Assembly: GCA_028724185.1 (NCBI GenBank)
Contig: JAQYDN010000021.1
Span: forward strand, 1 to 64,000
Length of the DNA: 64,000 nucleotides
Origin: Bacillota bacterium
GTDB lineage: Bacteria > Bacillota > Clostridia > Tissierellales > Peptoniphilaceae
Direction: 5' to 3'
Part shown: piece after piece, positions 31,883 to 36,190 of the stretch
How positions within the stretch are numbered: the stretch's first letter is position 1
Layout of the letters: the number at the start of each line of letters is the position of its first letter
Notes under the pieces: model-generated
Told to the model about the DNA's origin: nothing
The model's input: the letters and a program-made list of their open reading frames with translations, nothing else
Databases searched by the model: none
Position numbers and translations under genes: made by a program

Positions 31883-31958
31883 AATAAGATATATTGATTT
31901 AATCGGATTTCGTTACACTACATATAGTCTAATGAATGTTTCTATAGGAGGAATCACG

Positions 31959-32945
31959 ATGAAGTTAAAAAATGTGAAGTTGGCTATCGGCGCGTCCATG
32001 TTGGCGCTTACGCTCGTCGCTTGTGGCGGAGGAAATAACGGCGGAACGAATGGAAACGCCGCATCGAACGGAAACGCTCAAACGAATAATCAAGCGACTG
32101 AACAAAATACGAACGAAAAGGGCAATGCGGGCGGTTCGGCGAGCGCCGAAGACTTGGAAAAAATCGGTCAAATAGCCGTCATCAGCCGTGAAGACGGATC
32201 CGGTACGCGCGGTGCGTTTACGGAAATCGTAGGTTTGGTAGAAAAGAACGGCGATCAAGAAGTTGACTTAACCAGTCAAGCAGCAGCTGTTCAAAACTCC
32301 ACCAACGGCGTCATGACGACCGTTGCCGGTAACCCCTCGGCAATCGGCTACATCTCCTTGGGTTCGTTAAACGATACCGTTAAGGCTCTCAAGGTAGAAG
32401 GCGTCGAAGCATCTCCCGAAGACATCTTAAACGGCAGCTATAAATTGGCACGTCCGTTCTTGCTCGTCACCAAGGGTGAATTAAAAGAAGGTTCGGTCGA
32501 AGCCGACTTAATCAAGTTCGCTCTTTCCAAACAAGGCCAAGACATCATCGAAAAAGAAGGCTATGTAAAGAACGAAACGGCAGAAGAGTACACCCCGTCG
32601 GATGCCTCCGGTGAAATTACCGTAGCCGGTTCGACTTCCGTCACACCCGTTATGGAAAAATTGGTAGAAGCATATAAGAAAGAAAACCCGAACGCCAACG
32701 TTCAAATTCAATCGAACGGTTCTTCCGCCGGCATCACCGCGGTCAGCGAAGGAATGGCACAAATCGGTATGTCCTCGAGAGAATTGAAGGACGAAGAAAA
32801 GAAAGATGTCGAAGGAACAGTTCTCGCTCAAGACGGTATCGCCGTGATCGTAAACAACGAAAACAAGTTGGAAGATATCACGATGGATCAAATCAACAGC
32901 ATCTTCAAGGGCGAGATGCCGGCATGGTCCGACCTTGCTAAATAA
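31959..32945 (+). CDS. pstS: PstS-family phosphate-binding lipoprotein, circularly permuted order
   Basis: Lipobox LTLVACG; IAVISREDGSGTRGAF...AIGYISLGSLNDTVKALKV followed by GEITVAGSTSVTPVMEKL...SSAGITAVSEGMAQIGMSSRELK...GIAVIVNNENKLEDITMDQINSIFKGEMPAW. Confidence 0.9.
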   Translation: MKLKNVKLAIGASMLALTLVACGGGNNGGTNGNAASNGNAQTNNQATEQNTNEKGNAGGSASAEDLEKIGQIAVISREDGSGTRGAFTEIVGLVEKNGDQEVDLTSQAAAVQNSTNGVMTTVAGNPSAIGYISLGSLNDTVKALKVEGVEASPEDILNGSYKLARPFLLVTKGELKEGSVEADLIKFALSKQGQDIIEKEGYVKNETAEEYTPSDASGEITVAGSTSVTPVMEKLVEAYKKENPNANVQIQSNGSSAGITAVSEGMAQIGMSSRELKDEEKKDVEGTVLAQDGIAVIVNNENKLEDITMDQINSIFKGEMPAWSDLAK

Positions 32946-32960
32946 ACAGGTTATCTGGAA

Positions 32961-32993
32961 CAGATTCCCCACGGGGAATCTGTTTTTTATTTT
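32961..32993 (+). terminator. intrinsic terminator after pstS
   Basis: CAGATTCCCC-A-CGGGGAATCTGTTTTTTATTTT. Confidence 0.8.
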
Positions 32994-33067: not shown

Positions 33068-33925
33068 ATGCATTCAAAAAGATTTGAGAAGATCTGGGAA
33101 ATTATATTTTTAGCGTGTTCGCTCATTTCCGTATGTTCGATTATCGTCATGTGTTACTTTATTTTTAAAAACGGCGTTCCGTTTATGGTAAAGACGGGCG
33201 TCGCTAAATTCATTTTGGGGAGTGAGTGGCGACCCACGGCGTCGCCGGCGTCCTTCGGTATTTTGCCGATGATCGCGGGATCGGTCTATGTTACGATCGG
33301 CTCCATCATCGTCGGTGTACCGATCGGGGTGTTGACGGCGATATTTATGGCGTTTTACTGCCCCGATTCGATTTACCGCTTTCTGAAACCGGCGGTAAAT
33401 CTTATGGCGGGCATTCCGTCGATCATTTACGGTTTCTTCGGCTTGATGATCTTTGTCCCCATCGTCCGTTCGTGGTGGGGCGGTACGGGGATGACGGTCT
33501 TTACCGCATCGATTCTACTCGGGATTATGATTTTACCGACGGTCATCGGATTGTCGGAGTCGTCTTTGCGATCCGTGCCGACGTCGTATTATCAAGGGTC
33601 GATCGCCTTGGGGGCGACGCATGAGAGAAGCTTATTCCGCGTCGTCGTGCCGGCTGCGAAATCGGGGATACTCTCGGCGATCATCTTGGGCATCGGCCGT
33701 TCCATCGGCGAGACCATGGCGGTCATTATGATCGCGGGTAACCAACCGATGATTCCGCGAAGCATCAAAGAAGGGACGCGTACGATGACGGCAAATATCG
33801 TTCTCGAAATGGCATACGCCATGGGGGATCACCGCGAAGCGCTTATTGCGACGGGTGTCGTCTTATTTATCTTTATTCTAATCATCAACTTAGCGTTTAA
33901 TTTAGTCAAAAGGAGGATGAAATAG
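33068..33925 (+). CDS. pstC: phosphate ABC transporter permease PstC
   Basis: Polytopic; AGIPSIIYGFFGLMIFVPIV; GIGRSIGETMAVIMIAGN. Confidence 0.95.
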   Translation: MHSKRFEKIWEIIFLACSLISVCSIIVMCYFIFKNGVPFMVKTGVAKFILGSEWRPTASPASFGILPMIAGSVYVTIGSIIVGVPIGVLTAIFMAFYCPDSIYRFLKPAVNLMAGIPSIIYGFFGLMIFVPIVRSWWGGTGMTVFTASILLGIMILPTVIGLSESSLRSVPTSYYQGSIALGATHERSLFRVVVPAAKSGILSAIILGIGRSIGETMAVIMIAGNQPMIPRSIKEGTRTMTANIVLEMAYAMGDHREALIATGVVLFIFILIINLAFNLVKRRMK

Positions 33926-34752
33926 TGAAATCACAGTCTAAGGTAGCGCGCGGGGCTGTTTACGTCAGTGCGTTTCTAACATTTTTTATGTTAATCGTCC
34001 TCGTCGGCTATATCATCATAAAAGGCGCTCCGAACCTGACTCCCGCGATGTTCGAAAAGGTCTATACGACGGAAAATGTCTCGATGTTTCCGGCCATCGT
34101 GACGACGCTGATCGTCGTCATCTTGTCGCTGATTATCGCGACGCCGCTCGGTATATTCACGGGTTGCTACCTCGTCGAGTACGCTAAAAAGGGAAGCCGT
34201 CTCGTCGAGACGATTCGCCTCGCGACGGAGACACTCTCGGGAATCCCGTCGATTCTCTACGGTTTGTTCGGTATGTTGTTTTTCGGCACGGCGCTGCACT
34301 TGGGGTATTCGATTATGTCCGGTGTGTTGACGTTGTCGATCATGATTCTTCCCCTCATTATCCGGTCGACGGAAGAAGCGTTGCTCGCCGTAGATGATAC
34401 CTTAAGAAGCGGATCGTTGGCGCTCGGCGCGGGCAAATTGAGGACGATCGTAAGAGTCGTCCTGCCGGTTGCGATACCGGGCATTTTATCCGGCGTCATC
34501 CTGGCCATCGGGCGATGCGTCGGCGAGACGGCCGCGCTCATGTTTACGTTGGGAACGACGACGGACATGCCGACGAGCCTTATGTCCTCGGGTCGTACCC
34601 TTTCCCTGCATATGTACGTCTTATCGACGGAGGGAATGTACGTCAAGGAAGCCTTTGCGACGGGCTTTATACTCATTATATTAACATTACTCATAAACGG
34701 GCTAAGTTCCCTCATAGGTTCTAAATTGTCAGGAGGAAAGCAGAATGCATGA
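33925..34752 (+). CDS. pstA: phosphate ABC transporter permease PstA
   Basis: [35 protein letters not shown]. Confidence 0.95.
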
Positions 34753-35503
34753 GAGTAAGATTCTCGTCAACGACGTCGATCTCTGGTATGGAGATTTTCA
34801 AGCGTTGAAAAAAATCAATTTGGATATAAAAGAACACGAAATACTGGCGTTTATCGGGCCGTCCGGATGCGGCAAGTCGACGATGTTGAAATGTCTTAAT
34901 CGCATGAACGACCTCGTCGAAGATTGCCGTATCGAAGGCGAGATGCTCTTGGACGGAGAGGATATTTACGCAAAAAATTACGACGTCAATTTATTGAGAA
35001 AAAACGTCGGCATGGTCTTTCAAAACCCCAATCCGTTCCCGATGAGTATTTTCGATAACATCGCTTACGGACCCCGGACACACGGCATTAAAAACAAGGC
35101 GGCGCTCGAAGAGATCGTGGAGCGTTCGCTCCGCGGTGCGGCGATTTGGGACGAAGTCAAAGATAAGCTCAATCAAAAGGCGACGGCGGTTTCGGGCGGA
35201 CAGCAACAACGTATTTGTATCGCCAGAGCGCTCGCAGTCGAACCGCAAGTGTTGCTTATGGACGAGCCGACGTCCGCGCTCGACCCGATTTCGACGTTAA
35301 AAATCGAAGAGTTGGTACAGGACCTGAAAAAGGATTATACTATAATCATGGTGACGCATAATATGCAACAAGCCGCCAGAGTTTCAGACAAGACAGCCTT
35401 TTTCCTCTCGGGGGAAGTAATCGAAGCCGACTCGACGGAAAAGATGTTCTCGAATCCGGAAGATTCCAGGACGGAGGACTACATTACCGGTCGATTCGGT
35501 TAA
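34745..35503 (+). CDS. pstB: phosphate ABC transporter ATP-binding protein PstB
   Basis: [46 protein letters not shown]. Confidence 0.97.
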
Positions 35504-35518
35504 AACAGGGGGAAGATC

Positions 35519-36190
35519 ATGAGGAAGCAATACGATTTAGAACTGAATGAATTAAACACGAAATTAATTGAAATGGCCGCGTTTGTGGAACAAGCGGTAT
35601 CGGATTCTTTAAAGGCGTTGAAGGAGCGCGATGCAAAACTCGCGCACAAGGTTTCTCGAAACGACCGCGAAGTCGACAGCATGGAGCGACAAATCGAAGA
35701 TATGTGCATGCTCTTATTGTTGAAGCAACAGCCGGTAGCCGGCGACCTGCGCTTTATTTCTTCCGCGCTCAAGATTATTACGGACCTGGAGAGGATCGGA
35801 GACCAAGCACAAGATATTTGTGAAATATCGCTTTCGATGGACCAAAAGCCGCTCTCCGTCACGCCGGATATCATCAGCAACATGTTTGAAGAGGCCTCGG
35901 CTATGATTAAAATGGCGATCGATGCCTTTATCACGGAAGATGAAGATTTGGCGAACCAATGTATCGCGCACGACGATGTCGTCGACGAGTTGTTTTTGAC
36001 ATGTCGCAGAAAAATCATTAAAGAATTGAAAGAAGACAGAGATGATCCCGAAGAACTCATCGACCTCTTGCAAATTGCGAAATATTTGGAACGCGTGGCC
36101 GACCACGCACAAAACATAGGAGAATGGGTCATCTATTCGTTAACCGGACACCACAAGGATTACTTGGGTGAAGGCACGTTTGGGGACTAA
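35519..36190 (+). CDS. phoU: phosphate signalling complex protein PhoU
   Basis: LLKQQPVAGDLRFISSALKIITDLERIGDQAQDICE; LERVADHAQNIGEWVIY. Confidence 0.96.
   Translation: MRKQYDLELNELNTKLIEMAAFVEQAVSDSLKALKERDAKLAHKVSRNDREVDSMERQIEDMCMLLLLKQQPVAGDLRFISSALKIITDLERIGDQAQDICEISLSMDQKPLSVTPDIISNMFEEASAMIKMAIDAFITEDEDLANQCIAHDDVVDELFLTCRRKIIKELKEDRDDPEELIDLLQIAKYLERVADHAQNIGEWVIYSLTGHHKDYLGEGTFGD

Follow-up and report, generated by a model that had tools for sequence, protein, structure and literature searches.

The closest described relative of the protein reported here is PstS2 of Streptococcus pneumoniae (SP_2084, PDB 4H1X, 2012). It comes from a different bacterial order from the anaerobic host, is 51% identical to our protein, and shares both its permuted order of halves and its cut site. 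Because 4H1X is collinear with our protein, a permuted PstS was already solved in 2012. The S. pneumoniae Pst2 transporter has been implicated in Pi uptake: unencapsulated cells lacking the pst1 and pst2 operons lost about half of the uptake rate, a loss not seen in single pst1 or pst2 mutants (PMC4913102). Canonical Gram-positive PstS (4GD5, 4Q8R; TIGR02136) is homologous to our protein in both halves, with the same anion-site residues and the same operon, but the order of the halves is swapped. A natural circular permutation has been published for another tethered ABC-transporter binding protein, Treponema pallidum Tp0684 (MglB-2), whose permuted form is likewise spread among Gram-positives (PMC4990184). 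Tp0684 differs from permuted PstS in having a Type I sugar-binding fold, another cut and another family. A search of the open-access literature found no text naming or discussing the permutation of PstS or of 4H1X; ten papers that name SP_2084 deal, by title and abstract, with other matters. The permuted PstS lineage is widespread, structurally solved and apparently undescribed, and is an undiscussed oddity, not a new system.

Half order of PstS at the locus

The window, the whole 64,000-nucleotide stretch that was analysed, carries the following features.

31946..31951, + strand: Shine-Dalgarno sequence AGGAGG for ATG 31959, read directly from the sequence
31959..32945, + strand: pstS, permuted phosphate-binding lipoprotein, 328 aa plus stop (sequence, half-HMMs, doubled-query BLAST)
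31959..32024, + strand: lipoprotein signal peptide with lipobox LVA-C at its end, Cys22 at 32022-32024 (sequence; lipobox by eye)
32025..32162, + strand: low-complexity Gly/Asn/Thr/Glu tether from lipid anchor to folded core (sequence)
32169..32570, + strand: second-half block (canonical middle to C-terminus), aa 71-204 (half-HMM)
32571..32606, + strand: new junction of old C-terminus to old N-terminus, KNETAEEYTPSD (half-HMM bounds)
32607..32936, + strand: first-half block, aa 217-326, GEITVAGSTSV ... IFKGEMPAWSDL (half-HMM)
32957..32986, + strand: intrinsic-terminator-like hairpin of 13 pairs with T-rich tail, in the pstS/pstC gap (sequence; putative function)
33068..33925, + strand: pstC permease
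33925..34752, + strand: pstA permease
34745..35503, + strand: pstB ATPase
35519..36190, + strand: phoU regulator

The pstS reading frame is intact, with ATG at 31959, stop at 32945 and an open frame from 31932 (+). AGGAGG lies 7 nt upstream of the ATG, so 31959 is the likely start. The initial annotation described this ORF as a circularly permuted PstS lying directly before pstCAB-phoU, and its coordinates, block order and gene order agree with ours. The operon reads pstS-pstC-pstA-pstB-phoU, the setting of a PstS gene. Judged by its sequence, the hairpin between pstS and pstC is likely a partial terminator; its strength suggests that pstS transcript is made in excess of the permease genes. 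A promoter scan scored no better than shuffles.

Half-specific HMMs, run on a 354-aa stop-to-stop frame, placed both PstS halves on the 328-aa protein, the second half at aa 71-204 and the first at aa 217-326. The anion loop SREDGSGTR and the motif AIGYISLGSL lie in the second-half block, and the chain terminates after IFKGEMPAWSDL, the point where a canonical chain would continue. The cut falls in the short loop that links the IFxGxxxxW segment to IxVxSREDGSGTR. The junction has a median length of 14 aa in the permuted family, and alignment with relatives starts at the folded core, leaving the tether outside. PF12849 matched the protein in two out-of-order stretches (120.6 bits). TIGR02136 scored 203.1 bits, just under its cut-off of 206.6, its match divided into two stretches. 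Annotation models built from canonical PstS thus give a divided match on the permuted form.

Five canonical PstS proteins from the same phylum were compared by BLAST with the native protein and with the protein written twice. Each gave two swapped HSPs against the native protein (98–122 bits each) and one continuous HSP against the doubled one (252–279 columns, 197–218 bits), bearing out the earlier proposal that joining the ends restores the normal order. Per-half E-values of about 1e-27 to 1e-37 exclude chance similarity. Both halves are about 45–51% identical to the same canonical proteins and therefore both derive from PstS. The same figures make it very improbable that halves from different parents were fused or that the protein serves another ligand, even though the authors of the TpMglB-2 study considered its permuted part to be derived from a different gene (PMC4990184); the phosphate residues, too, are kept. 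Separate trees of each half gave no supported conflict, the halves being too short to resolve. Clearly, the window protein is a circular permutation of PstS. We are highly confident that it serves a Pst importer as the phosphate-binding lipoprotein and that its chain is a circularly permuted PstS.

Structure comparison gave the same picture. The best match in a PDB sequence search was 4H1X, in one stretch (aa 69-325, 260.8 bits), whereas canonical 4Q8R and 4GD5 each matched in two swapped stretches. An AF2 model of the protein (pLDDT 93.6) aligned with 4H1X over its full length by Foldseek (TM 0.90/0.94, 258 columns), as against only about 136 columns with canonical 4GD5/4Q8R in a sequential structural alignment. 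The usual lobe order, which would have spoken against the initial annotation, was not seen in the model, which matches permuted 4H1X end to end. Since the AF2 input alignment held 32 homologues, all of them permuted, the model gives no sequence-independent test of half order. On this model the protein is a PstS fold with altered connectivity. OpuAC, which may be another permuted binding protein, was among the weak Foldseek matches of the model. It was set aside as a permutation precedent, as the OpuAC paper makes no mention of permutation.

Distribution across genomes

An assembly or sequencing rearrangement could in principle have shuffled an ordinary pstS, as the source genome is a 23-contig draft. 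This explanation has a negligible probability because all seven congeners searched share the permuted order at 74–77% identity, the one-contig genome G007 included, and because 4H1X shows it as well. Wider relatives also have it. Matches to the permuted PstS were found in 188 of 250 genomes of the host's order. About 150 of these, counted from the table, gave the single full-length collinear match that marks the permuted order, and the rest gave mostly two swapped pieces. In an even sample of the phylum 121/300 genomes had a match, about ten of them permuted.

A scan of named genomes found the permuted form in Aedoeadaptatus, Peptoniphilus, Anaerococcus and Neofamilia, in the Aerococcaceae genera Hutsoniella, Globicatella, Fundicoccus, Dolosicoccus and Eremococcus, and in Desemzia, Atopococcus, Gemmiger and two Chloroflexota MAGs, the last of which may be binning errors. 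The permuted order is conserved across independent genomes, and the suspicion that permuted homologues exist in related Clostridia was well founded: they are common and reach beyond Clostridia. In most sampled genomes of the order the permuted protein has replaced the ordinary form.

Some genomes carry more than one copy. Two adjacent permuted pstS genes occur in several Anaerococcus genomes and in G014 (L093:4815-6771, L097, L099, L101, L102, L119; L056:4380-6261). In Desemzia and Atopococcus one region holds a permuted pstS together with a canonical pstS-like gene, the two separated by a few kb (L108:9419-10303, L113:9461-10354, L121:6579-7454).

The phosphate site and a second pst set

The phosphate-contacting residues of E. 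coli PstS are presumably T10 and S38 in the first half and R135, S139, G140 and T141 in the second. All six are conserved in the window protein. Position by position, at most one of 102 permuted sequences departs from S38, R135, S139, G140 and T141, or from T or S at the T10 position. The position of E. coli D56 is Ser in permuted and in most canonical Gram-positive PstS. The conserved site and the place of the gene at the head of pstCAB-phoU point to a working binding protein, as had been supposed. The permuted PstS very probably serves its operon as the functional binding protein, and these residues predict that it binds phosphate.

A second pst-like set in the same genome also bears on this question.

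G000:C1, L061:3667-7157: second pstS-C-A-B-like operon, canonical order, anion loop GSGT replaced by RDVNGGAHEVF

Its presence would allow the permuted PstS to be accessory or degenerate, with the canonical-order protein on contig C1 doing the phosphate work. We consider this quite unlikely. In the C1 paralogue the GSGT anion loop has been lost, with RDVNGGAH in its place, and no phoU adjoins the gene. The permuted gene, by contrast, has both an intact site and a phoU in its operon. Homologues of the C1 protein in G349 (L155) and G474 (L156) conserve G-G-A-H, which marks it as a member of a distinct paralogue family. From this sequence change the ligand of the family may be something other than phosphate.

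Re-cutting the chain should leave the two-lobed Venus-flytrap fold and the phosphate site unchanged, and docking onto PstCA would be unchanged as well. The lobe with the old termini would become one continuous stretch of chain, and, given how PstS proteins fold, the lipid tether would enter by way of the lobe carrying the cut. A textbook nutrient-binding protein tolerates natural circular permutation, and a phosphate binder that nature has already given new termini lends itself directly as a scaffold for building phosphate sensors.

Origin of the permuted form

The PstS tree was built from halves aligned separately and then joined in canonical order. In it the main permuted group forms one clade with branch support 99/90. 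In an independent PstC+PstA tree the partners of permuted PstS form one clan (100/100) that reaches Aerococcaceae, Gemmiger and a Chloroflexota MAG. The clade and the partner clan together show that permuted PstS and its permease pair have been passed on as a set, by descent and by transfer; the permuted protein travels with its own permeases.

A single permutation event most likely gave rise to the main lineage. After an in-frame tandem duplication of pstS, copy 1 would have lost its first half and copy 2 its second half; inheritance and transfer of the permuted protein alongside its own PstC and PstA would have come later. Fused double proteins of order 1-2-1-2 are present in three genomes of the host's order, G031 and G352 from one genus and G033 from another family.

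L054:2608-4275: fused double PstS, two binding units on one tether
L129:1018-2679: fused double PstS, two binding units on one tether
L055:5635-7392, − strand: fused double PstS, two binding units on one tether

These frames encode 554–586 aa. The linker between the repeats resembles the permuted junction, with a median of 14 aa (6–14) that equals the junction median, and the loop at which the permuted chain is cut measures 6–8 aa in canonical PstS. Unlike the window protein, the fused proteins have two full units and lie on canonical tree branches. They illustrate that a duplication-and-trimming route is open, as trimming a 1-2-1-2 protein at both ends would yield the permuted one. Descent of the permuted clade from these fused doubles was considered and rejected, since they are nested among canonical proteins and represent two separate fusions. 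With canonical, fused-double and permuted PstS all present in one order, the group is well suited to testing the duplication-and-trimming model.

The more surprising part lies outside the window, in a probable second permutation at the same place. G009, a genome from another genus of the host's family, encodes a divergent PstS that is permuted at the same cut (L060:3139-4119, G009:C7). It groups in the PstS trees with five canonical proteins, at support values of 99/92 and 99/99. The motif QNSTNGVM, frequent in the main permuted clade, is absent from it, and GGSTSVEKA and IGFASRE are common to it and the canonical protein of G464. AU testing disfavoured, without rejecting, one common origin for every permuted PstS (p 0.117, 64 rows; p 0.080 after removal of other long branches), and a second origin is accordingly stated as probable only; the case is a single genome with long branches in the PstS tree. 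We think it reasonably likely that this loop of PstS has been the site of two or more permutations, the PstS of G009 being an independent, convergent permutant. If so, permutation at this loop is repeatable, and the loop would be a preferred permutation site in phosphate-binding proteins.

The permease genes of G009 were also placed. Grouping its PstCA with the PstCA of the permuted clade was rejected by the AU test (p 0.014). Its transporter is of canonical type, with a long PstA of 424 aa (L060:5188-6462) that has an extra N-terminal region. PstA with such a region was found in 5/250 genomes of the host's order and in 1/399 of the phylum sample; the other four long-PstA genomes of the order have canonical PstS.
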